NCBI RefSeq assembly: GCF_023169885.1
Contig: NZ_AP025516.1
Span: 434,001 to 498,000, forward strand
DNA length: 64,000 nucleotides
Direction: 5' to 3'
Source: Desulfofustis limnaeus
GTDB taxonomy: Bacteria; Desulfobacterota; Desulfobulbia; Desulfobulbales; Desulfocapsaceae
Positions within the stretch are counted from its first letter, which is position 1, and every line of letters begins with the position of its first letter. Below, piece after piece: positions 44,882-60,700 of this stretch. Under the pieces are notes generated by a model, which was not told the origin of the DNA, did not search any database, and saw only the letters and a list, made by a program, of their open reading frames with translations. Made by a program: the position numbers and the translations under genes.

Positions 44882-46789
44882 ATGAACGACAAGTTTTTTG
44901 AACAGGTGGAAGAGATCAGCGAGCGGGATGATCGGGCGCTGATCATGTTGAAACGAAGGGCCTTGTTCGCGCCGTTCGTGGTCTTGGCCTTTTTCTTTCC
45001 GATCGCTGCTCGGTTCTGGTATCTGCAGATCAACAAAGGCGATCAGTATCGTCAAAAAGCCGATTCGAATCGGGTGCGGATCACCTCGTTGCCGCCGCCG
45101 CGCGGTCATATTCTCGATCACTACGGCCGGGAGATCGTCACCAACCGACCTTCCTTCAACGTGGTCATGATTCGGGAAGATTCCTTTGAAATCGACGACG
45201 TGCTGAAGCGCCTGGCGGTCGTTCTTAAAGAGGATATCGAGGTGTTATGGGAGCGGATCAGGGATGCCTCGGGAACCCCGCGTCATGTCCCGATCGTGCT
45301 CAAGGAGGATATCCCGTGGGACACCTTGGCGTACCTGGAGAACAACAAATACAAGTTTTCCGGCATCCGTATCGAGGTTCGTCCGGTACGTACCTATCAT
45401 TACGGGAATTTAGCCGCCAATGCCATTGGCTATATCGGTTCGATCAATCGGCAACAACTGGAGCAGGACCAGGAAGGCTTCTACGAAGGGGGTGACCTGA
45501 TCGGCAAACGTGGATTGGAACTGCTCCGGGAGAAAGACCTGCGCGGTGAGAAGGGGGAACGTTCCGCGGAAGTGGATGCCCGCGGGTTCGAACAGCAACA
45601 GCTGAAAAACATGGAGCCGCTACCGGGCAACGATGTTCACCTGACCATTGACGCCGAGTTGCAGAAGGCCGCCGAAGAGTACATGGCGATTGGCGAAAAG
45701 GCCGGTGCGGTGGTGGTCATGGAGGTGGACACCGGACGGCTGCTGGCCGCAGCCAGCACGCCGACCATCCATTTGGAGGATTTCATTGGCGGGATATCAA
45801 AGAAGAACTGGGACGCACTGCTGAACAACTCCCGCCATCCGCTGATCAATAAGGTCGTCCAGGCTGCCTATCCGCCTGGTTCCACGTATAAGATCGTTAC
45901 CGCTCTGGGCGGATTGGTGGAAGGTGTCATTGATGAAAATACCATGATCTATTGTCCCGGCCAGTACCGTTTTGGCAATCGTACGTATCGCTGCTGGAAA
46001 CGCGGGGGGCATGGCGCGGTTGAGATCAGACGGGCACTGGCCGAATCCTGCGATGTCTACTTCTACCAGGTCGGACAACGGCTCGGGGTCGATAAACTGG
46101 CCGAATACGCTCGTAAGCTAGGACTCGGCAGCGAGACCGGCGTTGATATGGAATATGAAAAAGCCGGTTTGATCCCGACCAAGGATTGGAAGCGCCAGCG
46201 GCATAACGAACAATGGCACGACGGGGAGACCCTGTCAGTGGCCATCGGCCAGGGCTTCAACCTGACGACACCGCTGCAGGTCTGCCTGATGACGGCGGCC
46301 GTGGCCAACGGCGGCCGAATCTATCGACCACGATTGGTGGAGTCGGTAACGACCCCGGATGGCAGAGTTGTGGATCGATTCTCCCCGGAGTTGATGAGTG
46401 AATTGTCGGAACGGGAAAAACACTTCCTACCAATCATCCGGGACGGGTTGTTCGAGGTGGTTCAGGGTAAGCGGGGCACCGCCCGTCAGGTGCGCATCGA
46501 AGGGATGACGGTGGCCGGCAAGACCGGTACCGCGCAGGTGGTTCGTCTGGCAGTCTACAAGGGCATGAAAGAAGAAGACATCCCCTACGAATACCGGGAC
46601 CATGCCTGGTTTACCTGTTATGCACCGGCCGACAAGCCGGAGATAGCCGTGACCGTTCTGGTTGAGCACGGGTTGCACGGCGGTTCCGGGGCCGGGCCGG
46701 TGGCGCGGGTAATGCTGAAGAAATATTTCGAGCATCGGCTGCAGCAGATGGAAGACAGCGTGGCCGACGCTTCGGGAAGGAATGGTTGA
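44882..46789 (+). CDS. mrdA: Penicillin-binding protein 2 (elongasome transpeptidase)
   Basis: 635 aa. A single N-terminal helix (FAPFVVLAFFFPIAARFWYLQI), the dimerisation/pedestal domain (RITSLPPPRGHILDHYGREIVTNRPSF), and the transpeptidase: active Ser in YPPGSTYKIVTAL (SxxK), SCD in LAESCDVYF, and AGKTGTAQV (KTG). It cross-links peptidoglycan during side-wall growth, working with RodA. ATG at 44882; an earlier in-frame ATG lies inside mreD. Normal length for the family. Confidence 0.96.
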   Translation: MNDKFFEQVEEISERDDRALIMLKRRALFAPFVVLAFFFPIAARFWYLQINKGDQYRQKADSNRVRITSLPPPRGHILDHYGREIVTNRPSFNVVMIREDSFEIDDVLKRLAVVLKEDIEVLWERIRDASGTPRHVPIVLKEDIPWDTLAYLENNKYKFSGIRIEVRPVRTYHYGNLAANAIGYIGSINRQQLEQDQEGFYEGGDLIGKRGLELLREKDLRGEKGERSAEVDARGFEQQQLKNMEPLPGNDVHLTIDAELQKAAEEYMAIGEKAGAVVVMEVDTGRLLAAASTPTIHLEDFIGGISKKNWDALLNNSRHPLINKVVQAAYPPGSTYKIVTALGGLVEGVIDENTMIYCPGQYRFGNRTYRCWKRGGHGAVEIRRALAESCDVYFYQVGQRLGVDKLAEYARKLGLGSETGVDMEYEKAGLIPTKDWKRQRHNEQWHDGETLSVAIGQGFNLTTPLQVCLMTAAVANGGRIYRPRLVESVTTPDGRVVDRFSPELMSELSEREKHFLPIIRDGLFEVVQGKRGTARQVRIEGMTVAGKTGTAQVVRLAVYKGMKEEDIPYEYRDHAWFTCYAPADKPEIAVTVLVEHGLHGGSGAGPVARVMLKKYFEHRLQQMEDSVADASGRNG

Positions 46790-46837
46790 TGGCCGGTTGG
46801 CGGCGCGGCTCCGGCAACCGGAGGTGAGGCAGAGAGA

Positions 46838-47962
46838 ATGTTTCGTTTCGACAGAAGACTCTTGATTCATTTTGACTGGGGCCTGCTGATCATGCTCCTG
46901 CTGATCTGCGGCATGGCGCTATTCAATCTCTACAGTGCTTCCTATCCGCCGCAACCGTGGGGGACGCCGCCCTACCTGAAGCAGTTGTACTTTTTTCTGA
47001 TGGGCTTTGCGGCGATCGTCTTTCTGCTCGGTTTCGATTATCAGGAACTTCACTTCTGGAACTATTTTTTCTACGGTGTTGTCGTCTTGCTCCTGCTGAC
47101 CATCCTCTTTATCGGAAAAAGTGCCGGTGGAGCACAGCGCTGGATATCGCTGGGTTTTTTCAATCTGCAACCGTCCGAGCTGGCCAAACTGATGCTGGTG
47201 ATCACTCTAGCCAGTTATTATTCCCGCAAAGACGTCACCGACGGTTATACCATCAGGCAACTGGTAGTGCCGATCGTACTGACGGCCGTTCCCTTCCTGC
47301 TGATCCTGTTGCAGCCCGATCTCGGTACGGCGTTGATGCTCGGTTTCATCTTCGCTTCGATGACCATTTTCGTCAAATTGCGGTTGTCGGTCTACCTGAT
47401 CCTTGGCGGAAGCGCTGTGGGGTGTGCCTTTCTCGCCTGGGAACATCTGCTTCTTCCCTATCAGAAACAGCGTGTCCAAACGTTTCTCAATCCCGAGGCC
47501 GATCCCATGGGGCATGGCTATCAGATCATGCAGTCGAAGATCGCGGTAGGCAGCGGCGGACAGTTCGGCAGGGGGTACCTGGAAGGAACCCAGGGGCACC
47601 TTCATTTTCTGCCGGAGCGGCATACTGACTTCGCCTTTGCCGTCTGGAGTGAGGAGTGGGGTTTTGCCGGCAGCATGTTCTTTCTCGGCGTCTATTTCCT
47701 GATGCTGGTCTGGGGGCTTTATTCGAGCATGTTCGCCCGGGACCGGTTCGGGGTACTGTTGTCGTTCGGTATCGTCATGCTCATTTTCTGGCAGGCGGTC
47801 ATTAACCTGCTGATGATCCTCGGCTTGTTACCGGTCGTGGGTATCCCCTTGCCGCTCGTGTCCTATGGCGGTTCCTCTCTGCTGACGACCATGCTTGGCA
47901 TCGGCATCCTGCTCAATGTCAGGATGAGACGGTTTCAGAGCCCTCGAGGGCAGATCGATTGA
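46838..47962 (+). CDS. rodA: Peptidoglycan glycosyltransferase RodA
   Basis: 374 aa SEDS-family membrane protein with about ten helices. Family blocks: SAGGAQRWISLGFFNLQPSELAKLMLVI, LLQPDLGTALML, the catalytic-Asp loop GYLEGTQGHLHFLPERHTDFAFAVWSEEWGFAG, and PLPLVSYGGSSLLTTMLGIGILLNV. It polymerises lipid II into glycan strands together with PBP2. It starts 48 bp after mrdA with GAGG upstream, and ends 9 bp from convergent hemH. Confidence 0.96.
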   Translation: MFRFDRRLLIHFDWGLLIMLLLICGMALFNLYSASYPPQPWGTPPYLKQLYFFLMGFAAIVFLLGFDYQELHFWNYFFYGVVVLLLLTILFIGKSAGGAQRWISLGFFNLQPSELAKLMLVITLASYYSRKDVTDGYTIRQLVVPIVLTAVPFLLILLQPDLGTALMLGFIFASMTIFVKLRLSVYLILGGSAVGCAFLAWEHLLLPYQKQRVQTFLNPEADPMGHGYQIMQSKIAVGSGGQFGRGYLEGTQGHLHFLPERHTDFAFAVWSEEWGFAGSMFFLGVYFLMLVWGLYSSMFARDRFGVLLSFGIVMLIFWQAVINLLMILGLLPVVGIPLPLVSYGGSSLLTTMLGIGILLNVRMRRFQSPRGQID

Positions 47963-47971
47963 GGGGCTGTT

Positions 47972-48964
47972 CTACGCGGCTTGTACGTGCTCCAAAACCA
48001 GTTGTTTCAAGCCGTGGATAAAACGCGGATGGGTGTTGAGCCCGCGGGTGGATTCCAGACGGATACCCTTGTCGGCGGCGAGACTGCGATAGGCAATGTC
48101 GATTTCGTACAAGGTTTCCACATGGTCCGAGACAAAACTGATCGGCACCATGAGGATGGCTCGGCACCCTTGGCCGGCGAGGTCTTCGATCATCTCCGGG
48201 GTGGATGGTGCCAACCATTGCACCGGGCCGCTCCGGCTCTGATAACAGATCTTGCCCGGTTTGCCGGTCAGCCGTTCCAGGGCGTTGATGGTGCGCTGGA
48301 GGTGCTCAACGTAGGGGTCGCCTTCTTCGATAAACGAGACCGGCAGGCTGTGGGCACTGTACACGATGTCCACGGCCTGACCGGAAAATCGCTGCAGCCC
48401 TTGCTCGACGAGATCGGCGAGGGCAGCGATATAGTCCGGCTGGTCCGGCCAAAAAAGTATCTCGGTCAGCGGCAGCGATGGCTTGGCTACGGCTAGCTGG
48501 CGCCGCAGCTCGTTGATCGATGATCCGGTGGTGGCTTTTGAGTAATGCGGGTAGAGGGTGAGAGCCACGACCCGGTCCACCCCGGCGTCGAGCAACTGCC
48601 CAACCGCCTCGTCGGTGAACGGATACCAGTAGCGCATGGCGGTAGTCACCGTAAACCTGCCGTTCATCGACAGAGCCTCCTGCAGTGCCTGCTGCTGCTG
48701 CCTGGTGATCGCGGTAATCGGTGAGCCGCCGCCGATCTTGGCGTAAGTGGCGCTACTTTTCGGTGCTCGTTTCCTGGCGATCAACCAAGCCAGCGGTTTT
48801 TGCAGCAAGCGCGGGCCAAGACGGATGATCTGCCGATCGGAGAAGAGGTTGAAGAGGAACGGGCGGACGTCGTCACGTTTCTCCGGGCCGCCCATATTCA
48901 TCAGCACGACGCCGGTGTGTTGCTGCCCACATGTTGCTGGGGCAGTGTGTTTCATAGTCTCCAT
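47972..48964 (-). CDS. hemH: Ferrochelatase
   Basis: 330 aa. It inserts Fe2+ into protoporphyrin IX (or coproporphyrin in some lineages), ending heme synthesis. Seen: GVVLMNMGGPEKRDDVRPFLFNLFSD at the N-terminus, active-site His in VYSAHSLPVSFIEEGDPY, YQSRSGPVQWLAPST, and the Glu loop PISFVSDHVETLYEIDI. Two starts are possible, at 48964 (MET-MKH) or 48955 (MKHTAPATCG). GGAG lies very near the second. It is convergent with rodA. Confidence 0.95.
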   Translation of the reverse strand: METMKHTAPATCGQQHTGVVLMNMGGPEKRDDVRPFLFNLFSDRQIIRLGPRLLQKPLAWLIARKRAPKSSATYAKIGGGSPITAITRQQQQALQEALSMNGRFTVTTAMRYWYPFTDEAVGQLLDAGVDRVVALTLYPHYSKATTGSSINELRRQLAVAKPSLPLTEILFWPDQPDYIAALADLVEQGLQRFSGQAVDIVYSAHSLPVSFIEEGDPYVEHLQRTINALERLTGKPGKICYQSRSGPVQWLAPSTPEMIEDLAGQGCRAILMVPISFVSDHVETLYEIDIAYRSLAADKGIRLESTRGLNTHPRFIHGLKQLVLEHVQAA

Positions 48965-49367
48965 CCGTTTTACATACCACAGGAAAAAACGACAGAGAAG
49001 AATCTTTTCGATGAGGCGCCGGGAAATCCGGAGAAGGAGTTAGGGAGCGTGAAAATAATCGTAGTGCTCTTGATTCTACCTGGACACCGCATATAATAGA
49101 GGTAAATGGAACGCGTTTTTTATTGGTCAGCTCGCGTTCACAAGAGTTTGGTGAATGATGTCGAAACCGCTCTCCGCTCACCCCCAACCCGCTGCTTTTC
49201 CCACCCCTCTTTATTGTTGTACCCTCCCGGTCGAATGGTTGCTTTGTTCGTGGTCTATTCCGATCAGGACCCTTATCGACGGGGAGGTTGTTGCTTGTGG
49301 AGCACCCTGGCGGGTGCATGTGTTTAGCGACGCTTACCGTTGCTGAAACGCTTTATGGAGGAATTCT
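48965..49367. promoter_or_regulatory. Intergenic region with promoter and long leader before the HPF/CSD gene
   Basis: 403 bp without a supported gene. A rightward sigma-70-type promoter is visible: TTGATT (49070-49075), 16-nt spacer, TATAAT (49092-49097). This gives a leader of about 260 nt. A 73-codon open frame at 49106-49327 has poor, low-similarity-looking composition and I do not call it. The leader may carry regulation; no defined riboswitch is recognised. Confidence 0.6.
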
Positions 49368-49901
49368 ATGGAACTGAAAGTCGAAGCCCGAAATGTTGAG
49401 TTGAAAAAAGGCTGGCAGATGAAAATCGACGAGGAGAAGGAGAAATTGCTGCGCAACTATGCGAGCTTTGTCCTGCACCTGCGGGTAGTGATCGAGGCCA
49501 CGACTCACCATAAAGAGGGCGGTTACGAAGTCAAGATCGTGGCTTCGGTGCCCAACGATACGGTCGTGGTCAGCAAAAAAGGGGAGGTAGTTCGACCACT
49601 GCTTATCGAGGCCTTCGATGTACTTACCCTCCAACTCAAAGAGAGGCTGCGAAAAATTCGGAAGGTAAAAAAAGGTGCAGATGCAGCGCCGGATTTGGAC
49701 AAGGCCGGGGTGATCAACATGGTATCACCGCACGAGTCCTATGGATTCATCCGTTCAGTCGATCAACGGGAGATCTATTTCCACGAAAACGCCTTGAAAA
49801 ATATCGGTATCGAAGAGTTGGCCGAGGGAGACAGTGTCCTGTATGGTGAGACGTTCGGCGACAAAGGCCCGCAGGCATCGTGGGTTCGCCTGGCGAAATA
49901 A
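49368..49901 (+). CDS. HPF/RaiA-like ribosome-associated protein fused to a cold-shock domain
   Basis: 177 aa. Residues 1-105 resemble the HPF/RaiA fold (VEARNVELKKGWQMKIDEEKEKLLRNYASFVLHLRVVIEA), which sits on idle ribosomes at the A/P sites. Residues 112-177 form a cold-shock domain: GVINMVSPHESYGFIRSVDQREIYFHENAL, with the YGFI and IYFH aromatic RNA-binding motifs in place. The two halves together suggest ribosome hibernation or RNA binding under stress. GGAGG lies 6 nt before the ATG. It is a single-gene transcript ended by a strong hairpin. Confidence 0.85.
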   Translation: MELKVEARNVELKKGWQMKIDEEKEKLLRNYASFVLHLRVVIEATTHHKEGGYEVKIVASVPNDTVVVSKKGEVVRPLLIEAFDVLTLQLKERLRKIRKVKKGADAAPDLDKAGVINMVSPHESYGFIRSVDQREIYFHENALKNIGIEELAEGDSVLYGETFGDKGPQASWVRLAK

Positions 49902-49921
49902 CAGCTGAAAAGAATAGCGGA

Positions 49922-49964
49922 AAACCAAAGCGGCCCCGGACTGGTTCCGGGGCCGCTTTGGTTT
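49922..49964 (+). terminator. Strong bidirectional terminator between HPF/CSD and the radical SAM gene
   Basis: An 18-bp perfect stem: AAACCAAAGCGGCCCCGG (49922-49939) and CCGGGGCCGCTTTGGTTT (49947-49964), with a 7-nt loop. U-rich ends lie on both strands, serving the two convergent genes. Confidence 0.9.
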
Positions 49965-49972
49965 CATGACAG

Positions 49973-51562
49973 TCAGTCCTGGTAGCCAGCGAAGGCGAAG
50001 TCTTCGTTGGCGTAGAGGTGTGGATCGGCGTCTGGATAGGTGACTTCCTGGCCGCTCCATGGTTTTCTCAGGGTGTAGGAGGCGTCACTGACCGCCATCA
50101 CGTTGTCGCGATGCAGCGGGATTTTGCCTCCGGCGGTGGCGATATAGCGGGGGATGGCATCGCCGGAGATGTTGCCGTACATGGACTCGACGATGTCGCG
50201 ACCGACTTCCAGTGGTACCCGGAAGTGGGTGAATTGCGGGTTCCGGTAACTGCAGTTGAAGATGTAGTAGGGCCGAACATAGGCCTCCTGAATCGTCTCA
50301 CAAAGCTTCCACATCTTGACCCGGCTGTCATTAATGCCTTTCAGCAGCACCGCCTGGTTGAGCACGGTGAAACAGCGCTTGGAGATGCGCCGGAAGGTAT
50401 TGCGTGAGATCGGCGTGATTTCCTGGGCGGTGTTGATCTGGGTGACGACCCTGATCGGTTTGATGTCGTTGCTGGCTTCGATGATATCAAGCAGCTCCTC
50501 ATCAACCCGCATCGGTACGGTGACCGGTACCCGGGTGCCGAGCCGTTTCAGTTTTACGTGATCGATGGCGTCCAGTTCCTCAAGCAGCCATTTGAGCATG
50601 GAGTTGGGCAGTACAAAGGCGTCGCCGCCGGTGATGAGAACGTCGCGAATCCTGGGGTTGGCCCGGATGTAGTCGAGGGCTTCCCGGTAGGCCTCGCGGG
50701 AATAGATCTGATCCTTGCGCCCGATGTGGGCGATGCGCAGACAATGGGTGCAGTACATGGCGCACATGTTGGTGGCCTTGATGGTAACCACCCGCGGATA
50801 GAACTGATCGATCAGCCGGGCCGGCGAATGATCGGCGGCGACCGGCGGAATCTCGATCCCGGCGTTATCGATCATTTCGCCGGTGGGAACCGATTGCAGC
50901 ATGACCGGATCGTTGACCGTTCCGGGCATGATCAGGCTGGTGTAGTAGGGCGTCAAACGCATTCGGTACTGTTTCGTCACCCGGGCGATGGAGGCGACCG
51001 CCTTCTCGGGCAGGTCCACGAGGTCGGCCAGGGTCTCGATGGAGTCGACGGCATGGCGGATCTGGCCGGGAAACGAGTTCCAGTCGTCGTCGCTCATCTG
51101 CAGCGCCTGTTTGATCCGTTGCTGGTTTTCCAGAATCTTGTCCCACAGTTCGATGCCGCTTGGGGCGAGGACGTCCTTTTCAGCCAGATAGGCATCCACC
51201 CGCGCGTTGGCCTCGGCGGCGATCGGTCGGGCCTGGGTCAAGCGTCCGCCGACACTAACCATATGCTCGTCGATCCGCTGGTGTTTGGCGGCCAGTTCTT
51301 CCAGTGTGGCACGCTCGATACCAAAGGCTTCCGGACGGCGCTGCTGCTCGTTGGCTTGGTGTGACAAGAACGTGAACAGATCGAGGATCGGCGCGGTCAA
51401 ATTCGCTTCCCGGGCCTGGTTCAGCAGTGCCGCGGCCTGGGCGCGCTCCGTCTCTGCGGCCGGTTCCGCTATGCCGGCACCAAACAGCGCGTCGAACAGG
51501 GTAGCGGTGTAGCGGTCCCAGGCTGGGGGCGTTTGTTCGGTCATACTGCTTGCTTGTTCCAT
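49973..51562 (-). CDS. KamA-like radical SAM protein
   Basis: 529 aa. The iron-sulfur motif is CAMYCTHCLR at about residue 262, like the CxMYCxHC of lysine 2,3-aminomutase. ITGGDAFVLPNSMLKWLLEEL and RLGTRVPVTVPMRV follow the KamA core. A Lys in ATAGGKIPL aligns with the PLP-binding Lys of aminomutases. The Asp that binds the lysine substrate in KamA (in the DAPGGGGK segment) is not evident, so the substrate may differ. About 200 N-terminal residues (helical) are additional. ATG at 51562 with GAGG upstream; it begins 1 bp after the ATP-grasp gene. A 2,3-aminomutase-type reaction is likely; the product is unknown. Confidence 0.85.
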   Translation of the reverse strand: MEQASSMTEQTPPAWDRYTATLFDALFGAGIAEPAAETERAQAAALLNQAREANLTAPILDLFTFLSHQANEQQRRPEAFGIERATLEELAAKHQRIDEHMVSVGGRLTQARPIAAEANARVDAYLAEKDVLAPSGIELWDKILENQQRIKQALQMSDDDWNSFPGQIRHAVDSIETLADLVDLPEKAVASIARVTKQYRMRLTPYYTSLIMPGTVNDPVMLQSVPTGEMIDNAGIEIPPVAADHSPARLIDQFYPRVVTIKATNMCAMYCTHCLRIAHIGRKDQIYSREAYREALDYIRANPRIRDVLITGGDAFVLPNSMLKWLLEELDAIDHVKLKRLGTRVPVTVPMRVDEELLDIIEASNDIKPIRVVTQINTAQEITPISRNTFRRISKRCFTVLNQAVLLKGINDSRVKMWKLCETIQEAYVRPYYIFNCSYRNPQFTHFRVPLEVGRDIVESMYGNISGDAIPRYIATAGGKIPLHRDNVMAVSDASYTLRKPWSGQEVTYPDADPHLYANEDFAFAGYQD

Positions 51563-51563
51563 G

Positions 51564-52985
51564 TTACTCTGCCTCTGTGATGGTTTGCTGAATAAAGCCA
51601 ACACCCTGACACAGGCCTTCGTCGACATCGTCGCGGTTGCGGGCGACGGAGACGACACGGGCCAGGAACGTGCCCGGCATGACAATGAAGTTGGTTCCCG
51701 GATGTTCGAGAATGACAAAATCCTTGAGTAATTCGCCGTTGGCCACCTTGCGGAACGTTTCCCGTTCATACGGGTTTTGCGGGATATAACCGGTGGTCAG
51801 TTTTTTCGTCTGGATCTTATAGTTGTACGTCCCCCAGTGGATGTTGCGGTGGTTGTCCTTCATCTCTGCGGTGCTGCGGGGAAAACGCCCCTCGGTCACG
51901 GCATAGTACTCCAGTTCGGGCAGCATCGGCGCTCCTTCCGGCAGGGTCTGCTCCAGGGTATAGCAGAATTCCAGGGTTGTTCCCTGCTTACGGGCATTTA
52001 TCTCGAGAAAGAAGACTTCCCCGGTGTTGTCGATCAGATAGTCACAGCCGAAGATGCCGCGGTACCCTTTCTCGCCGAGCATACGACCGACCCGTACCGT
52101 GTACTCATGCATTTTTTCCTGTTGTTGCCGGGTCGCAGTTGAGGGAAATTTGGAGCCGATAAAACGGTTGCCGTCGACGATGACCTGATCGGCGATACCG
52201 GCGATGTAGACGTCTTGCTCATTGGCGACCACGGCAAGCACCGTTGGGTCGAGCTGGTGGGGTATGAAGCGTGAGATCAGGTAGACATCGTTAGTGGCGC
52301 CGAATTTTTTTTCCACCTGCTCCTGGTTGAAGGTGACTGCCGAGTTGATACCGGCTGCGGAGTAGGCGCCACTGACAAAAATGCCGTCGGTCCAGCGGTT
52401 GCGCAGTTCAGCGGTGGTGCGCAGCAGGCAGTCGCGATCTTCGCAGACTTTATGGTCAGCCAGCGGTACGATACCTTCGAGAGCCTTGTATTGTATGATC
52501 TTATTGTTGAAATGACGGGCGATATATTTATCCGGACCGAGGATGGACACCCGATCGATCTGATCAAGCGTCATTTCCAGGACGCTCTCATAGAGGTTGA
52601 TGTAGAGTTGGTTTTGATGCTCGAGGATGCGATCAATCAAGGTGCGTATCGCCGGATTGTTCGAGACCGCGCTCATGAAGCGGGCTGATTCGATACGCCA
52701 GCAGCGTCGTGGTTTTTTACCCGGCTGAACGAACGCGTGATCGGAGATGAATTCTTCCTCGCCGCGCGGATTGATGACGATGATGTTGGCGTAATTATAC
52801 TGGATGCAGATATCGGGGATGATGGCGATAAAGCGGATCGGGCGATTGGGTATCCGATGCGCCAGTGCTTCCTGCACGAAGTAGTTGAGGCTGTAGGTCT
52901 TGAGTTCCCCGACATAGAGAAAATAATAGTAATCAGGGTTGTAGGTGAAGTTGGTGAAGAGTATTTCATCGTCTTCAGGGACCAT
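51564..52985 (-). CDS. ATP-grasp family protein
   Basis: 473 aa. The ATP-grasp core is seen in the second half: QVIVDGNRFIGSKFPS, then GYRGIFGCDYLIDNTGEVFFLEINARKQGTT, whose Asp, Glu and Asn bind Mg-ATP. This is the fold of carboxylate-amine ligases. The first 200 residues are divergent and lack a classic biotin-carboxylase front. It forms a two-gene operon with the KamA-like gene, so it may ligate the amino acid that the radical SAM enzyme makes (inference). AAGGA lies 9 nt before the ATG. The substrate is unknown. Confidence 0.8.
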   Translation of the reverse strand: MVPEDDEILFTNFTYNPDYYYFLYVGELKTYSLNYFVQEALAHRIPNRPIRFIAIIPDICIQYNYANIIVINPRGEEEFISDHAFVQPGKKPRRCWRIESARFMSAVSNNPAIRTLIDRILEHQNQLYINLYESVLEMTLDQIDRVSILGPDKYIARHFNNKIIQYKALEGIVPLADHKVCEDRDCLLRTTAELRNRWTDGIFVSGAYSAAGINSAVTFNQEQVEKKFGATNDVYLISRFIPHQLDPTVLAVVANEQDVYIAGIADQVIVDGNRFIGSKFPSTATRQQQEKMHEYTVRVGRMLGEKGYRGIFGCDYLIDNTGEVFFLEINARKQGTTLEFCYTLEQTLPEGAPMLPELEYYAVTEGRFPRSTAEMKDNHRNIHWGTYNYKIQTKKLTTGYIPQNPYERETFRKVANGELLKDFVILEHPGTNFIVMPGTFLARVVSVARNRDDVDEGLCQGVGFIQQTITEAE

Positions 52986-53177
52986 GAACGTATTCCTTGT
53001 GAGTGGTTGCAGTAACGATCAGTACCCGGGGGACCGGGCGACCAGGGGGGCAGTGCGGCTTGGGTCGCTGGTGCGGCCGCTGCGGCAGACGGCGTACGGC
53101 GGTCAAGGCCTCCGTGCGGCCAGAACGGTTGAAGCTTCGCGCTCGGTTTCGCGGCAGCGGTGCAGTCCATTTCTTTT

Positions 53178-53197
53178 CTGGAAGCGATCGCTTCCAG
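53178..53197. promoter_or_regulatory. Perfect 20-bp palindrome, probable operator
   Basis: CTGGAAGCGATCGCTTCCAG reads the same on both strands; one further T/A pair extends it. With no loop it suits a dimeric DNA-binding protein rather than a terminator. The centre GCGATCGC is the HIP1-type octamer known from cyanobacteria, which may be chance. Confidence 0.5.
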
Positions 53198-53377
53198 ACA
53201 ATGAACAAAAGCCGACCCGGTTGATTTGCTCCCGGTTTCGGCTCGATTCGTGGTTTCTGCATGAATTGTGACTTCAATACCCCCCATCGCTCACTTTGTC
53301 AAGCGATGGAGCCCACTTTTATCGAGCCTCGGTGTCATCCACGGGATAGAGGGACTCATTCCGGGAAATGGCTTGAC

Positions 53378-53405
53378 TTGTCAAACAAATTTTGTGATTT
53401 ATAAT
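53378..53405 (+). promoter_or_regulatory. Probable promoter of the TAXI-TRAP operon
   Basis: -35 TTGTCA (53378-53383), 16-nt spacer, -10 TATAAT (53400-53405), in an AT-rich stretch unlike its surroundings. It reads toward the TAXI receptor gene. Confidence 0.65.
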
Positions 53406-53609
53406 AAGCGGCATCGGAGCAGCACGGGTGATGGGCATGGACAAGACGTGCCTGATCTTGCCGGCTCCGCATGCTCCGACCGACCCAACTTCCGTTCAAA
53501 CTTTGGTTTCAAGTGGCGTTCCGCCGTCCGGCGGGGCCGTGACGTGTCTCACTGGTATTCTTTTTAAGCCTTTGAGATTACTAATAAAGAGAACAAGGAG
53601 GGATATCGT

Positions 53610-54584
53610 ATGAAGAAGAAAGCAGGATTGCTCGCCGCCCTGACTCTGGGTTTTGCCATGGCCGTCAGCTCCGCGGCTGTAGCCGAGACCACCTTCGTGA
53701 CCATCGGTACCGGCGGCGTTACCGGCGTCTACTATCCGGCCGGCGGAGCGATTGCTCAGCTGGTCAACAAAGGTAAGGACGAGCATGGGATCCGTGCCTC
53801 GGTAGAGGCCACCGGTGGCTCGATTTACAACCTCAATGCACTGGCCTCCGGTGAGTTGGATCTGGGTGTCGTTCAGTCGGATTGGCAGTATCATGCCTAT
53901 AACGGCACCAGCAGCTTCGCCGATAAGGGCGCCAACAAGGACCTGCGCGCTGTTTTCTCACTGCATCCGGAACCGTTCACCGTGGTTGCTCGGGCAGATT
54001 CGGGGATCAAAAATTTCGAGGACCTCAAAGGCAAGCGCGTCAATATCGGTAATCCCGGTTCCGGACAGCGGGGCACCATGGAAGTGGTGATGGGAAAATA
54101 CGGCTGGACCAAGGACGACTTCAAGCTGGCCGCCGAACTGAAGCCGGCCGAACAGTCCCAGGCCCTCTGCGACAACAAGGTGGATGCCATCATCTATACC
54201 GTCGGTCACCCCAACGGTTCCATTCAGGAAGCAACCACCGCCTGTGACGCCGTACTGGTCAACGTGGATGGCCCGATCATCGAGCAACTAGTGGCCGAGA
54301 ACGATTACTACCGTACCGCCGTGATCCCCGGGGGCATGTATCGGGGCAACGATCAGGATGCCAAGACCTTCGGTGTTGGCGCAACCATCGTCAGCTCCGC
54401 CAAGGTCCCGGAAGATGTCGTTTATCACGTGGTGAAAGCGGTATTCGAGAACTTCGACGATTTCAAACAGCTCCATCCGGCCTTCATGGTTCTGAAGAAG
54501 GAAGAGATGGTTAAAGATGGGCTCTCCGCGCCGTTGCATGACGGTGCCGCCAAGTATTACAAGGAAGCCGGCCTGATCCAGTAA
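53610..54584 (+). CDS. TAXI-family TRAP transporter solute receptor
   Basis: 324 aa periplasmic binding protein. Signal peptide residues 1-25 ([25 protein letters not shown]). The TAXI signature follows: [53 protein letters not shown], and [21 protein letters not shown]. It feeds the fused permease downstream. AAGGAGG lies about 9 nt before the ATG. The carried solute is unknown; glutamate-like or other organic acids are usual guesses. Confidence 0.93.
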
Positions 54585-54608
54585 GAAAACGGCATTTCCG
54601 TGTTGAAC

Positions 54609-54644
54609 CAATGCGCGACCCCGTCTTCTCGGCGTCGCGCATTG
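54609..54644 (+). terminator. Hairpin between the TAXI receptor and permease genes
   Basis: CAATGCGCGAC (54609-54619) pairs perfectly with GTCGCGCATTG (54634-54644), followed by TTGTCTTGT. It lies in the 183-bp gap and may lower permease expression relative to the receptor, which is normally needed in excess. Confidence 0.6.
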
Positions 54645-54767
54645 TTGTCTTGTCAGGAAAGTGACCTCCCTGCACACGCTGAGCAGGTGCGCAGCGGGTG
54701 CGGTGCGGTACGACGGGAGGTCGACTTTTTGCCATCGAGTAATATCGGCTAGGGAGGGAAACGGGGT

Positions 54768-57353
54768 ATGACCAAACCGAGCGAACGGCCTTCTTCCGGC
54801 AGGAACGTCCATGAGCTGGTGGCCGAGGTGGACACCGGCGGTCGCAACCCAAAGGGCGCCATCTCCAAAAACATATTGTTCTTTGTGCCGTTGGCCTGGA
54901 CGTTGTTCCAGTTATGGCAGGCGTCGCCGCTCCCCTACCTGGTTAATTTTCTGGTGCTCAATTCCTCCGAGGCCCGCGCCATCCACCTGGCATTCGCCAT
55001 GTTCCTGGCCTTTGCCGCCTTTCCCACTTTCAAGTCGTCTCCCCGAAGCTATATCCCGTTCCAGGATTGGGGGCTGGCCCTGATTGCGGCCGCCAGTTCG
55101 GCTTACATGTATCTGTTTTACGAACAGCTGTCGACTCGGCCCGGCGACCCGACTCAGCTTGATCTGGTGGTGGCGGTGGTTGGCTTGGTGCTGCTGCTGG
55201 AGGCGACCCGTCGGGCCCTTGGCCCGCCTTTGATGGTGGTAGCCGCCGTCTTTATCTTGTACACCTTCGGCGGGCCTTTCATGCCCGATGTCATCGCCCA
55301 TAAGGGCGCGAGCCTCACCAAGGGTATGACCCACTACTGGTTGACCACCGAAGGGGTGTTCGGGGTCGCTCTTGGTGTCTCCACCGACATGGTGTTCATG
55401 TTCGTGCTGTTCGGTTCGTTGCTCGAGTCGGCCGGGGCCGGCAACTATTTCATCCGTACCGCCTTCGCCGGACTTGGGCATATGCGGGGCGGGCCGGCCA
55501 AGGCGGCGGTGGTGTCCTCGGCGATGACCGGCCTTGTCTCCGGTTCGTCCATCGCAAACGTGGTCACCACCGGTACCTTCACCATCCCGCTGATGAAAAA
55601 AGTCGGCTTCACCCCGGAAAAAGCCGGCGCCGTGGAGGTGGCCTCGTCCACCAACGGCCAGCTCACCCCGCCGGTTATGGGAGCGGCCGCCTTTCTGATG
55701 GTCGAGTACGTGGGTATTTCCTACATCGAGGTGATCAAACACGCCTTCCTGCCGGCCATCGTCTCCTACATCGCCCTGGTCTACATCGTCCATCTCGAGG
55801 CTTGTAAGCTCGGCTTGCAGGGTATGGAACGGCGTGTCAAACGGACCATCCTGCAGAGCCTGTTCACTTTCGTCTCCACCATTTTACTGCTGATCATCAT
55901 CGGCGGAGCGACCTATTATGGTCTCGGCTGGATCAAGACTGTTTTCGGCGAGGCGACCTTCTGGATTGCCATCGGGCTGTTGCTGGTGGCTTATCTGCTG
56001 CTGATCAAGATCGCCTGCCTGGTCCCCGAACTGGAAGTAGTCAAAGAGATTACCGAACTGCCGCCGCTTCGCGAGACTGCTCAGGCCGGATTCTATTTTC
56101 TGTTGCCGATAGTGGTGCTCATGTGGTGTCTGACCGTTGAACGGTTGTCGCCGTCCCTGTCCGCCTTCTGGGCCACGGTCCTGCTGATGTTCATCGTGCT
56201 TACCCAGCGGCCGCTCAAGCGTTGGCTGCGTCGGAGCAACGACGAGTCGTTCACCTTCCAGCGTGGCTGGCTGGATCTGGTCAGCGGCATGGTAGCCGGT
56301 GCGCGCAACATGATCGGTATCGGTGTGGCCACCGCAACCGCCGGCATCGTCGTCGGGACCGTTACCCTGACCGGTATCGGCCTGGTGATGACGGCCTTCG
56401 TGCAATTCATCTCCGGCGGAAATCTGCTGCTGATCCTACTCTTTACCGCGGTGATCAGCCTGCTGCTCGGCATGGGGTTGCCGACCACGGCCAACTACAT
56501 CGTCGTCTCGACCCTGATGGCCCCGGTCATTGTCAACCTGGCCGCCCAGAACGGCCTGATTCTGCCGCTCATTGCGGTGCATCTGTTCGTCTTCTACTTC
56601 GGTATCCTGGCCGACGATACCCCGCCGGTCGGTCTGGCCGCCTTCGCCGCGGCCGGAATCTCCGGCGGCGATCCGATCCGTACCGGTATTCAGGGATTCA
56701 TGTATGACATCAGGACCGCCATCCTGCCCTTCATCTTTATCTATAATACCGAAATCCTGATGATCAGCATCGGCACGCCGCTTCATTTCACTGTCGTGGT
56801 GCTGGGCACCGTGGTGGCGATGTTGAGCTTTGCTGCGGCGACGCAAGGTTATTTCTTGACCAGAAACCGTGTGTGGGAGACGGTCTGTTTGCTGCTGGTC
56901 GCTTTTACCCTGTTACGGCCCGGGTTTTTCTGGGATCGTTGGTTTCCGGAGTTGGACTATAAGCCGGCCTCAGAGTTGCTCTCCGTGGTCGAGGAGATGC
57001 CGCCAGGAAAGCACTTACGGCTGGTGGTCAAAGGCACCAAGATGGACGGGACCGAGGTCACGAGAGCGGTGATGGTGGCTATCGGCAACGAGCCGACTGC
57101 CCAGGACCGTCTGCGCGCCATCGGGTTGAACGTCATGGCCAGCGGCGATAAGGTTCGCATCGGCATGGTTTCCTTTGGCAGTGCCGCGGAAAAGGCATTG
57201 ATCAAATACGGTGACGAGATCGTCAGCGTCCCGGTGGAAAACAAACGCCCGGACAAGCAGTGGATGTTCGTTCCCGCCTTTGTCCTGCTGGCCCTGATCT
57301 GGTATGCTCAGCGGCGGCGGGTGCGAAGGCAGATACAACCGGTCGTTGCCTAG
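54768..57353 (+). CDS. TRAP transporter fused permease subunit (4TM-12TM)
   Basis: 861 aa inner-membrane protein joining the DctQ-like small subunit (about residues 25-150) to the DctM-like channel (about 160-690). DctM blocks include VSSAMTGLVSGSSIANVVTTGTFTIPLMKKVGF and ASSTNGQLTPPVMGAAAFLMVEYVGISYIEV. The second half has GMGLPTTANYIVVSTLMAPVIVNLAAQ and DDTPPVGLAAFAAAGISGGDPIRTG. The C-terminal 170 residues carry a DUF3394-like domain with a PDZ-like end (KVRIGMVSFGSAAEKALIKYGDEIVSV). It uses a Na+ or H+ gradient for import. GGGAGGG lies upstream of the ATG. Confidence 0.93.
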   Translation: MTKPSERPSSGRNVHELVAEVDTGGRNPKGAISKNILFFVPLAWTLFQLWQASPLPYLVNFLVLNSSEARAIHLAFAMFLAFAAFPTFKSSPRSYIPFQDWGLALIAAASSAYMYLFYEQLSTRPGDPTQLDLVVAVVGLVLLLEATRRALGPPLMVVAAVFILYTFGGPFMPDVIAHKGASLTKGMTHYWLTTEGVFGVALGVSTDMVFMFVLFGSLLESAGAGNYFIRTAFAGLGHMRGGPAKAAVVSSAMTGLVSGSSIANVVTTGTFTIPLMKKVGFTPEKAGAVEVASSTNGQLTPPVMGAAAFLMVEYVGISYIEVIKHAFLPAIVSYIALVYIVHLEACKLGLQGMERRVKRTILQSLFTFVSTILLLIIIGGATYYGLGWIKTVFGEATFWIAIGLLLVAYLLLIKIACLVPELEVVKEITELPPLRETAQAGFYFLLPIVVLMWCLTVERLSPSLSAFWATVLLMFIVLTQRPLKRWLRRSNDESFTFQRGWLDLVSGMVAGARNMIGIGVATATAGIVVGTVTLTGIGLVMTAFVQFISGGNLLLILLFTAVISLLLGMGLPTTANYIVVSTLMAPVIVNLAAQNGLILPLIAVHLFVFYFGILADDTPPVGLAAFAAAGISGGDPIRTGIQGFMYDIRTAILPFIFIYNTEILMISIGTPLHFTVVVLGTVVAMLSFAAATQGYFLTRNRVWETVCLLLVAFTLLRPGFFWDRWFPELDYKPASELLSVVEEMPPGKHLRLVVKGTKMDGTEVTRAVMVAIGNEPTAQDRLRAIGLNVMASGDKVRIGMVSFGSAAEKALIKYGDEIVSVPVENKRPDKQWMFVPAFVLLALIWYAQRRRVRRQIQPVVA

Positions 57354-57412
57354 AATCGGAATGGCCGCACCGAGGAAAATGGAAGCAAAGTTCTGAGAAT
57401 CGGGAGGGGAAT

Positions 57413-57913
57413 ATGGCGATCAAAAAGATCATGGTGCCGCTGACGTTTACTCAATATTCACAAGGGATCCTCGAGTACGCGTCAATCTTCGCCGAGGCGC
57501 TCGGCGCCGAACTGATTCTGGTCAATGTCATCAATCAACGTGATCTGGAAGCGGTGGATAAAATCACCTCCTTTGGTTTCAAGGTCGATACCGAGCATTA
57601 TCTGGAGACCATCAAAAAAGAGCGCCGGGAAGTGATTTCGCAATTGGCCGAAAAGCTGTCTCTGCCTGATGATCGCGTCAGCTTCACCTTTCTCGTGGGC
57701 GAGCCGTCCACCGAGTTGCTGCGCTATGTGGTGGAAGCCGACATCGACCTGGTGGTGATGGGTATCAAAGCCCGGGATCTGCAGCACCTGTTTGCCGGCT
57801 CCGTAGCCGAGCGGTTGTTTCGTCGCTGTCCGGTACCGATTATTTCTTACCGGGGCGGCAAGACGTCCGCAGAGATGTCCCAGTGGATCAAAAAACATAT
57901 CATCCAGTCCTGA
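57413..57913 (+). CDS. Universal stress protein family
   Basis: 166 aa. IKKIMVPLTFTQYSQGILEYASIFAEALGAELILVNV is the UspA start. The ATP-loop region VVMGIKARDLQHLFAGSVAERLFRRCPVPII is recognisable, but the usual G-x-x-G becomes GIKA, so nucleotide binding may be altered. GGGAGGGG lies before the ATG. It follows the TRAP permease by 59 bp. Usp proteins fused to or beside TRAP genes are known to regulate transport, which is plausible here. Confidence 0.88.
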   Translation: MAIKKIMVPLTFTQYSQGILEYASIFAEALGAELILVNVINQRDLEAVDKITSFGFKVDTEHYLETIKKERREVISQLAEKLSLPDDRVSFTFLVGEPSTELLRYVVEADIDLVVMGIKARDLQHLFAGSVAERLFRRCPVPIISYRGGKTSAEMSQWIKKHIIQS

Positions 57914-58030
57914 GCGAGCTTTGTCCCCCAGTCGCCGGTCTTTACTCTCGTGGGTGATCGGCCGGCCGGCCGACGTCCGGTTGACAGGGAGCGCAGCGAA
58001 TCAATCCAATCTCTTCTGGCAGGTTTTCCG

Positions 58031-60700
58031 GTGAGTGACGAACTATACCTGGTGGATGGTAGCGCTTTCATCTACCGTGCTTTTCATGCCGTTGGCCCGC
58101 TCAGTAATCGAGACGGTCTGCCGACCAACGCCGTGTTCGGTTTCGCCAGTATGCTGCGCCGCCTGCTCAAGGAACGGCAGCCGACCTACCTGGCGGTGGC
58201 CTTTGACAGTAGGGGCCCGGGGTTTCGTCACGAGCTCTACCGTGCCTATAAGGCCAACCGGCCGGCCATGCCGGACGAACTGGCCTGTCAGATCCCCTAC
58301 ATCAAGGAGCTGGTGCAGGCACTTGGCCTGGTTAGCTTCGAACAGCCCGGCGTTGAGGCCGACGACCTGATCGCATCGGCGGTTTCTCGTCTTGACGCGG
58401 CGGAGCACCCCATCGTCATCGTGTCCGGAGACAAGGATCTGTTGCAGCTGGTCAACGATCGGGTCACGCTCTGGGACCCGATGAGCGACAAGGTCATGGA
58501 TCGGGCCGCGGTGGCTGCCAAATACCAGGTCGAACCGGAGCTGCTGCTGCAGAGCTTCGCGCTGATCGGCGACAGTTCCGACAATGTTCCCGGAGTCCCC
58601 GGCGTCGGCCCGAAAACCGCCGGCACCTTGATTCGCCAGTATGGGAGTCTGGAAGCATTGTACGATCAGGTTGACGGATTGAAGCAATCGAAAATGAAAC
58701 AAAACCTGCTCGAACATCGCGAGCAGGCCTTCCTGTCTCGGGACCTGATCCGTCTCAAACATGATTGCGCCGTACCGCCCACCATTGACGGCTATCGACT
58801 CGGCTCATCGGACCAGGAGCGGCTGAAGGGGTTGTATGCGGATCTCGGTTTTGCCAGTCTGCTCAAGGAGCTTGACACGGCCCGTCCGTTGGCTGGAGAT
58901 GATTTTCACTTGGTGACCAGCGAACATCAGTTGGCTGAGCTGGCTTCGATCTTACACCAGGCGGAGGTGCTGGCCATTGACACGGAGACCACTTCCCTGG
59001 ACAGTCGTACTGCCGGATTGGTGGGTATCTCGTTGTGCTGCGGACTTCCCTCCTGCTGGTATATCCCCGTCGGCCACCGAGACCGTGACGGGCAACCGCT
59101 GTCCGGGCAGGTGAGCCTCGAGGCGTTGCGGACGATGTTGCAGCCCGTACTGCAGTCGAAGAAGCTGCCGAAGATCGGGCATAATCTCAAATACGACTAC
59201 ACCGTTCTCGCCTGTGCCCTGGGTGTGGAATTAAAGGGTCCGTTGATCGACACCATGATTGCCGCCTATCTCACCGAGCCGGCGAGACGATCGCTGAAAC
59301 TGGACGACCTGTGTCGGGAGATCGATCTGAAATTGACCAGCTATGGCGAAGTTACCGGGGGGGACAAGCGCCAGGACGCGTTCGCTTATGTGGAGCCAGC
59401 CTCCGCCTGTCACTATTCCTGCGAGGATGTCTATGGGACGCTGGCCTTGTGGGAGCATCTGCAGCCGCGGCTCGAAGAAAAAGACATGGGTGGACTGTTT
59501 CACGAGATCGAAATGCCGCTGATGCCGATCCTGGCGAAGATGGAGATGACCGGCATCAAGGTCGATCCGGCACGGTTGGAGGCGCTTGCCGAGGAGTTTC
59601 GGGAAAAATTGGCAAGCCTGGAACAGCAGATCTATCAGGCGGCCGGTCATCCGTTCAACATCAACTCACCGCAGCAGTTGGGGACGGTGTTGTTCGAAGA
59701 GTTGGGTCTACCGCACGGCAAGAAGACCAAGACCGGTTATTCCACCGATGGCGCCGTCCTGGAAAAATTGGCGGTCGGTCACGAACTGCCGGCCCTGATT
59801 ATCGAATATCGTAATCTGGCCAAACTGCTTTCCACCTATGTGGACAAGCTGAAGCACCTGATCCACGGGGATACCGGCCGGGTTCATACCTCGTTCAACC
59901 AGACGGTGACGGCGACCGGCCGGCTCTCCAGCAGTAATCCGAACCTGCAAAACATCCCGGTCCGTGGCGAAGAGGGGGGACGGATCCGCGAGGCCTTCGT
60001 CGCCGAGGCGGGCAAGGTCTTTCTCTTTGCCGACTATTCACAGATCGATCTGCGGGTGCTGGCCCATTACTCGCAGGATACTGCTCTTCTTAAAGCGTTT
60101 CGCCAGGGCGAGGATATCCACACCCGCACGGCGGCGGAGATCTTCGGCGTTTCGCCGTTGTTGATAACACCGGAGATGCGGCGGGTGGCCAAGAGTATCA
60201 ATTTTGGCATTGTCTACGGCATGAGCAGCTTTGGCCTGTCCAATCAGCTGCAGATCAGCAGGGCAGAGGCGAAGAAATTCATCGACCGTTATTTCCAGCT
60301 GTACGCCGGCGTGCAGCGGTTTATGCAGGAAATCGTCGAGCAGGCCCGCCGGGACGGTTATGTCTCCACCCTGCTCAATCGACGGCGTTATTTGCCGGAG
60401 ATCAAGGCGGCCGACAAGGTTCGCCGAGAATTTGCCGAACGGGCCGCGATCAATACACCGATCCAGGGGACCGCGGCGGATATCATCAAACTGGCCATGC
60501 TCCGGGTCAACGAGCTGTTACGCGATCGGGATTCCCAGTGCCGAATGCTGCTGCAGATTCATGACGAACTGGTTTTCGAAGTGGATGAATCGTTCTGCGC
60601 CGCCATCAAAGGCGATATCCGCACCTGCATGGAACAGGCCCTGAGCCTGGACGTGCCGTTGGTGGTCAACATGGGCGAGGGGCGAAGCCTCGCCAAGTAG
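58031..60700 (+). CDS. polA: DNA polymerase I
   Basis: 889 aa. 5'-3' exonuclease domain (residues 1-290: LYLVDGSAFIYRAFHAVGPLSNRDGLPTNAVFGF; PGVEADDLIAS; GDSSDNVPGVPGVGPKTA). 3'-5' proofreading domain with intact acidic residues (AIDTETTSLD; IGHNLKYDYTVL; SCEDVYGTL). Polymerase domain motifs A (FADYSQIDLRVLAHYS), B (RRVAKSINFGIVYG) and C (LLQIHDELVFEV). It fills gaps and removes RNA primers. GTG start (VSDELYLVDGSAF) is preferred to a GTG 27 codons upstream because family members begin here; the ribosome site is weak (GGCAGG). Confidence 0.96.
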   Translation: MSDELYLVDGSAFIYRAFHAVGPLSNRDGLPTNAVFGFASMLRRLLKERQPTYLAVAFDSRGPGFRHELYRAYKANRPAMPDELACQIPYIKELVQALGLVSFEQPGVEADDLIASAVSRLDAAEHPIVIVSGDKDLLQLVNDRVTLWDPMSDKVMDRAAVAAKYQVEPELLLQSFALIGDSSDNVPGVPGVGPKTAGTLIRQYGSLEALYDQVDGLKQSKMKQNLLEHREQAFLSRDLIRLKHDCAVPPTIDGYRLGSSDQERLKGLYADLGFASLLKELDTARPLAGDDFHLVTSEHQLAELASILHQAEVLAIDTETTSLDSRTAGLVGISLCCGLPSCWYIPVGHRDRDGQPLSGQVSLEALRTMLQPVLQSKKLPKIGHNLKYDYTVLACALGVELKGPLIDTMIAAYLTEPARRSLKLDDLCREIDLKLTSYGEVTGGDKRQDAFAYVEPASACHYSCEDVYGTLALWEHLQPRLEEKDMGGLFHEIEMPLMPILAKMEMTGIKVDPARLEALAEEFREKLASLEQQIYQAAGHPFNINSPQQLGTVLFEELGLPHGKKTKTGYSTDGAVLEKLAVGHELPALIIEYRNLAKLLSTYVDKLKHLIHGDTGRVHTSFNQTVTATGRLSSSNPNLQNIPVRGEEGGRIREAFVAEAGKVFLFADYSQIDLRVLAHYSQDTALLKAFRQGEDIHTRTAAEIFGVSPLLITPEMRRVAKSINFGIVYGMSSFGLSNQLQISRAEAKKFIDRYFQLYAGVQRFMQEIVEQARRDGYVSTLLNRRRYLPEIKAADKVRREFAERAAINTPIQGTAADIIKLAMLRVNELLRDRDSQCRMLLQIHDELVFEVDESFCAAIKGDIRTCMEQALSLDVPLVVNMGEGRSLAK

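Follow-up and report, generated by a model that had tools for sequence, protein, structure and literature searches.

Several described systems form or ligate unusual amino acids, and we compare them here with a two-gene locus of Desulfofustis limnaeus, in which the gene for an ATP-grasp ligase (P0002) is followed by that for a KamA-type mutase (P0001), a radical S-adenosylmethionine (SAM) enzyme with pyridoxal phosphate (PLP). The locus lies in a 64,000-nucleotide stretch of a 4.23 Mb single-contig genome (NZ_AP025516.1, positions 434,001 to 498,000); this stretch is called the window, and its coordinates are used throughout. The closest described mutase is glutamate 2,3-aminomutase (TIGR04368, Eam), which is the best named model for P0001 and its sister group in our tree; P0001 and the glutamate-type enzymes that adjoin some relatives of the ligase both have the counterparts of R134 and K337 of lysine 2,3-aminomutase (structure 2a5h), a YxFNC motif and mostly threonine at position 330. 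P0001 nevertheless scores 347 bits, far under the 650-bit cut-off of that model, its N-terminus is about 114 residues longer, and a Ser-x-Arg-Asn stretch with one inserted residue replaces the lysine of the glutamate type. AblA/KamA and AblB, according to the accessible part of one paper, form a two-gene route to a beta-amino acid solute (PMC1224877) with the same radical SAM/PLP core; unlike AblA, P0001 has no lysine-binding aspartate, and its partner is a ligase rather than AblB. PylB and PylC resemble the pair in combining a radical SAM mutase, which forms an unusual amino acid, with an ATP-grasp enzyme that ligates this product (PMC8318568, as far as its accessible text goes). Their substrates, however, are lysines, and their product enters protein. 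PylB belongs to another radical SAM family and lacks PLP. The operon for N-acetylglutaminylglutamine amide (NAGGN), with asnO, ngg and a peptidase gene, likewise joins a ligase and a peptidase for a glutamine-derived dipeptide solute (PMC8070244, in the part available), but no aminomutase takes part in it, and the D. limnaeus genome has a separate NAGGN copy. Among named ligases BesA comes closest; it joins an amino acid, propargylglycine, to glutamate and is the best match of P0002 among PDB sequences (8yi6, E 2.6e-05). This match is weak, spanning residues 237-337 or about one-fifth of P0002, and the score against the BesA model NF042917 (NCBIfam) is 28.8 bits, with a cut-off of 750. Ngg is a GNAT/ATP-grasp fusion. 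The features of the pair are as follows.

51564-52985, minus strand: ATP-grasp ligase P0002, 473 residues, first gene of the pair (Pfam ATP-grasp_3)
49973-51562, minus strand: KamA-type radical SAM/PLP mutase P0001, 529 residues, second gene of the pair (TIGR00238)
51221-51562, minus strand: N-terminal extension of the mutase, residues 1-114, including H94, D98-E99-H100 and G105-G106-R107
50741-50764, minus strand: Fe-S/SAM motif of the mutase, C267-x3-C271-x2-C274
50240-50251, minus strand: S438-Y439-R440-N441 of the mutase (the Asp293 site of the lysine type, Lys in the glutamate type)
50123-50125, minus strand: PLP lysine K480 of the mutase

What we observe is a conserved and linked gene pair, fused in two genomes, whose products belong to known enzyme families and one of which has changed pocket residues. 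Both open reading frames stand on the minus strand where the earlier note on this DNA had placed them, and their spacing of 1 bp is borne out, the ligase ending with TAA at 51564-51566 and the mutase starting with ATG at 51560-51562. This start (529 residues) is also that of the nearest relative; the longest frame (598 residues, up to 51769) was rejected for its overlap with the ligase gene. Of the named relatives, Desulfofustis glycolicus is the nearest, with a ligase 90% identical. In a scan of named genomes we retained the best 80 of 82 ligase relatives, which gave 79 loci; 74 of these could be tested for the partner (five had too little DNA), 64 for a third gene, 69 for a GntR regulator and 59 for TRAP (tripartite ATP-independent periplasmic) transporter genes. 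With a partner called at more than 140 bits, a mutase is the next gene on the same strand in 72 of the 74 loci, so that the conservation which the earlier note proposed to check is found, and chance adjacency is rejected. The two exceptions are L101, where the mutase lies downstream on the opposite strand, and L070, which lacks one. Among 58 related genomes the ligase is strong in 14 and the long mutase in 14; either is present in 15 and both in 13, and in the two genomes with only one of the genes it lies at a contig end.

The partner is of the long type of P0001 in 69 loci and a glutamate type of 396 residues in four (L099, L100, L104 and L105). In two metagenome-assembled genomes (MAGs), those of L099 and L104, the ligase and an enzyme like glutamate 2,3-aminomutase form one open frame of about 900 codons; these loci are sisters in the ligase tree, and the fusion may thus be a single event. 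The hosts, taken from the loci retained, include Desulfobulbales, other Desulfobacterota-type names, Desulfonatrono- genera, Campylobacterota (Sulfurospirillum and Arcobacteraceae), Hippea and one Brocadiaceae MAG, and the gene set is common mainly to sulfate-reducing bacteria. Among 121 genomes from Campylobacterota at large, the only positive was the centre genome itself. The Desulfonatrono- genera are of soda-lake origin. Two further loci are irregular: in the genome of L101 the mutase (L164) is read with one in-frame TAG, which may reflect a pseudogene, a sequencing error or recoding, and L131, which has no mutase, holds a ligase fragment followed by a fragment resembling gamma-glutamylcyclotransferase (GGCT) and looks like a degenerate copy of the locus.

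P0001 belongs to the KamA radical SAM family (TIGR00238, 228 bits, cut-off 199.2). The lysine 2,3-aminomutase model TIGR03820 gives 290 bits, below its cut-off of 525.4, and the arginine-type model 236 bits, also below cut-off. Alignment with 2a5h (E 1.9e-65) retains the cluster cysteines, Arg134 and the PLP lysine, K480 aligning with K337, and the CxxxCxxC motif and PLP lysine reported earlier are indeed present (C267, C271 and C274). The absence of the lysine-binding aspartate was also correctly read, Asp293 being replaced by S438 and Asp330 by T476. Asp293 and Asp330 bind lysine in lysine 2,3-aminomutase. We assessed conservation in the 69 loci with a long-type partner more than 50% identical, the denominators being the relatives that cover each site. 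C267 is found in 69/69 and C271 and C274 in 68/69; all 65 relatives that cover the S-x-R-N loop have its Ser, Arg and Asn, while Thr at the Asp330 position occurs in 63/65 and the PLP lysine in 64/65 (one has Arg). The earlier note had allowed that the mutase might be plain lysine 2,3-aminomutase beside a chance neighbour. An identity in the range of 30-35% to lysine-type enzymes and the catalytic motifs in common speak for this, but the same-strand pairing, the fusion and the Ser and Thr at the two Asp positions contradict it, and the acetyltransferase AblB was not found in the D. limnaeus genome by a search that was positive in 4 of 14 control genomes. We reject the identification, both Asp positions being changed, and regard the account as a whole as extremely improbable; judged by its sequence, the mutase is no ordinary lysine 2,3-aminomutase.

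Other KamA-like genes were seen nearby or in the same genome. A further paralog in the D. limnaeus genome (L003, 3092591-3096547) has Glu in place of one Asp and Ala in place of the other and stands directly before a GlnH-like glutamine-binding protein that scores over cut-off. Two more, at L042:7781-8767 and L084:8589-9494, lie upstream of the ligase but on the other strand, and their residue at the Asp293 position is Lys or Arg.

In a tree of 44 chosen sequences, which held no EpmB and no arginine-type reference, the long-type mutases and the glutamate 2,3-aminomutases form one group, with a support of 94.1 by the approximate likelihood-ratio test (SH-aLRT) and 95 by ultrafast bootstrap (UFBoot). 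The four glutamate-type partners have Lys at position 293, as does L132, the sole match over the glutamate 2,3-aminomutase cut-off of 650; L100 and L105 reach 624 and 575 bits. Lys at this position is a trait of the Clostridioides glutamate 2,3-aminomutase. The long type differs from these also in its N-terminus, for which the earlier figure of 200 extra residues was too high: the excess is about 145 residues over lysine 2,3-aminomutase and about 114 over the glutamate type. Within this extension H94, D98, E99, H100, G105 and R107 are present in 68/68 covering relatives and G106 in 67/68. No match was found for residues 1-148 in Pfam or for residues 1-152 among PDB sequences. The S-x-R-N loop and the extension may mark another substrate, or a mutase that acts on a dipeptide.

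If the mutase acts on a dipeptide, the ligase would come first and make an ordinary gamma-glutamyl (or similar) dipeptide, whose amino group the long mutase would then shift, the amide portion being bound by the extension and the Ser-x-Arg-Asn loop. The glutamate-type Lys is lost whereas R276, the counterpart of R134, is retained, a residue that we take to bind the alpha-carboxylate, and the strict conservation of the extension is also in keeping with this order. In one complete genome, moreover, a second long-type mutase (L169:7583-9160) has no adjoining ligase and follows the operon of a dipeptide/oligopeptide ATP-binding cassette (ABC) transporter, the ATPase of which scores 428 against a dipeptide-transporter cut-off of 408; for its binding protein the top model is glutathione GsiB, though far under cut-off (118.7 of 594). 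Against this, the glutamate-type partners of the same ligase family retain the Lys, which fits free glutamate, and, as a matter of chemical inference, a GGCT should not free 5-oxoproline from a beta-glutamyl unit. We think it unlikely that the ligase acts first.

The ligase belongs to the ATP-grasp superfamily (PF02655, 32.6 bits, cut-off 23.2), and its ATP-grasp residues E328, N330 and R332 are present in all 76 relatives that cover them. Its AlphaFold2 model (mean predicted local distance difference test score, pLDDT, 86.5) matches full-length ATP-grasp enzymes, the best with a Z of 25.5 over 356 residues; PylC (4ffr) is among the matches, with a Z of 23.9 over 314 residues. Many ATP-grasp families tie in this search, and thus the fold does not name the substrate.

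A third gene offers a hint of the product. Among the 64 testable loci, the mutase is followed by an M20 peptidase in 45, by a GGCT-fold protein in five (all Campylobacterota) and by neither in 14, the window locus being without one. The M20 gene also adjoins three of the four glutamate-type pairs. The M20 proteins exceed the Pfam cut-offs for Peptidase_M20 (86.7 bits) and its dimer domain (51.4 bits), and their best models, PRK07338 'hydrolase' and 'glutamate carboxypeptidase', are both under cut-off. The GGCT-fold proteins matched no chain among PDB sequences, and Pfam AIG2_2 was found in two of the five (best E 0.0011); it is the predicted fold alone (pLDDT 85.8) that gave a match, the first being human gamma-glutamylcyclotransferase (3cry, Z 14.2, root-mean-square deviation 2.6, 139 residues aligned). 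In the sequences of all five, E85 in an R-E-x-G-Y stretch is invariant; it is a candidate for the catalytic Glu that gamma-glutamylcyclotransferase uses. Two unrelated hydrolases at the same place, one of a fold that cuts gamma-glutamyl bonds, suggest a dipeptide with such a bond.

These third genes, as hydrolases of small molecules, also bear on whether the target of the pair is a protein that receives a beta-amino acid, as in the beta-lysylation of elongation factor P (EF-P) by EpmB and EpmA. KamA-type mutases do act in EF-P modification, as the EpmB model attests. EpmB is, however, the weakest of the named KamA-family models for P0001 (180.9 bits, cut-off 369.3), and the partner is an ATP-grasp enzyme. 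EpmA resembles a tRNA synthetase. We consider protein modification very unlikely. The modified peptide raised in the earlier note gained nothing either, as no precursor-peptide gene stood out among the conserved neighbours, where the gene caller ignored frames below 70 residues.

We favor the hypothesis that the two genes are the core of a small-molecule pathway in which a beta-amino acid formed by the mutase is built into a dipeptide by the ligase and a hydrolase recycles this dipeptide, and we give the hypothesis somewhat less than an even chance. Such a pathway would explain both linkage and fusion, because the mutase would make what the ligase consumes. The substrate, product, bond type, direction and use that we infer are these. 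Using SAM, the Fe-S cluster and PLP, the mutase would shift the amino group of a free amino acid, probably glutamate or a close relative, from the alpha to the beta carbon and so yield beta-glutamate or its relative; beta-glutamate is the first candidate because one branch of the family is characterized by a glutamate-type partner. The ligase would then spend ATP to couple this product with another amino acid, the bond probably running through the gamma-carboxyl group of a glutamate, and gamma-glutamyl-beta-glutamate would be the simplest example of the resulting dipeptide. In other genomes the M20 peptidase or the GGCT-like enzyme would split the dipeptide again, and a TAXI-TRAP importer may take up the solute or a precursor. 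The dipeptide would most likely serve as a metabolically inert solute. The earlier proposal that the pair makes and ligates a beta-amino acid thus holds as regards a functional pair, on the evidence of synteny, fusion, tree and residues, and the reaction itself is our best reading.

A number of findings weigh against this pathway or parts of it. The window's mutase has Ser and not Lys at the glutamate-type position, and thus its substrate may not be glutamate; the glutamate-type clade is itself weakly supported in the tree (63.5/55); and the only genome of 247 with a glutamate 2,3-aminomutase over cut-off shows no adjoining ligase. A strict pair is contradicted by L070, where no mutase was found within reach or genome-wide at E 1e-60, and by L107, whose contig ends in the ligase and in whose genome none was found, although MAGs may be incomplete. 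The 14 loci without either hydrolase include the window's close relatives, and no close M20 gene was found in the window's genome, the best being 26% identical. The GGCT-fold gene stands apart from the pair in 6 of 12 loci of one family, and hence was probably recruited. A search of window positions 45000-60000 and of 16 loci found no Rfam family and thus no sign of a Na+ or cyclic di-AMP riboswitch, and the genome has its own NAGGN synthetase (L173 C1:4063185-4064807, 832.9 bits, cut-off 569). Finally, GntR-FCD regulators and TRAP importers fit catabolism as well.

The importer genes stand divergent from the pair in the window.

53610-54584, plus strand: TAXI-family TRAP solute-binding protein (TIGR02122, 374.5 bits, cut-off 84.35)
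54768-57353, plus strand: TRAP fused permease (TIGR02123, 653 bits, cut-off 320.65)

Of the 59 testable loci, 29 have TAXI/TRAP genes no more than 6 kb away, and a GntR regulator of the FCD type is directly upstream in 23 of 69. These frequencies speak for a catabolic role, in which the TRAP transporter would take up an amino acid or peptide that mutase, ligase and hydrolase then degrade under the control of the GntR regulator. Both TRAP genes are seen, however, in just 25 of the 59 loci, and a ligase that spends ATP would be unusual for catabolism, although routes with gamma-glutamylation exist. We see import and breakdown as rather improbable. A gene of the universal stress protein (Usp) family stands beside the TRAP transporter, an arrangement reminiscent of the Tea ectoine transporter. 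On the other side of the pair, window positions 49368-49901 encode a short protein with an S30AE region (ribosome hibernation type) followed by a cold-shock domain, both over the Pfam cut-off, and this gene adjoins the pair in several Desulfofustis-type loci.

Returning to the biosynthetic pathway that we favor, an osmolyte role for its dipeptide is plausible but, within that reading, clearly less likely than not. Beta-amino acids act as solutes in methanogens (PMC1224877), and elsewhere among bacteria ablA and eam are under the control of Na+ riboswitches (PMC9337991), according to the portions of these papers available. Judging by names, not every host comes from a saline place, which weighs against the role. 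To go by its NAGGN synthetase gene, the organism probably also produces an already known dipeptide osmolyte. A search for ectoine synthase was uninformative, with no control genome positive.

The gene set is real and conserved, and it is a new combination of known kinds of enzyme. It is also undescribed within a limited search of the literature, in which titles and the beginnings of abstracts, mostly outside subscription journals, held no description of the pair, a weak negative. At its broadest, the hypothesis would be that these genes make, import and recycle a new class of dipeptide, a gamma-glutamyl-linked beta-amino acid serving as a compatible solute of marine and soda-lake anaerobes, and that the long mutase is a new specificity class with an N-terminal substrate domain of its own; we hold this extended form to be unlikely. 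If the pathway is true, it would be a case of a radical SAM aminomutase coupled to an ATP-grasp ligase outside pyrrolysine, and the long mutase, with its altered pocket residues, would represent a new subclass of aminomutases. The pair would further provide a gene marker for a solute in sulfate-reducing bacteria and related anaerobes, some of which, such as Desulfofustis glycolicus, Desulfopila aestuarii and Desulfoprunum benzoelyticum, are cultured and would be open to metabolite analysis.

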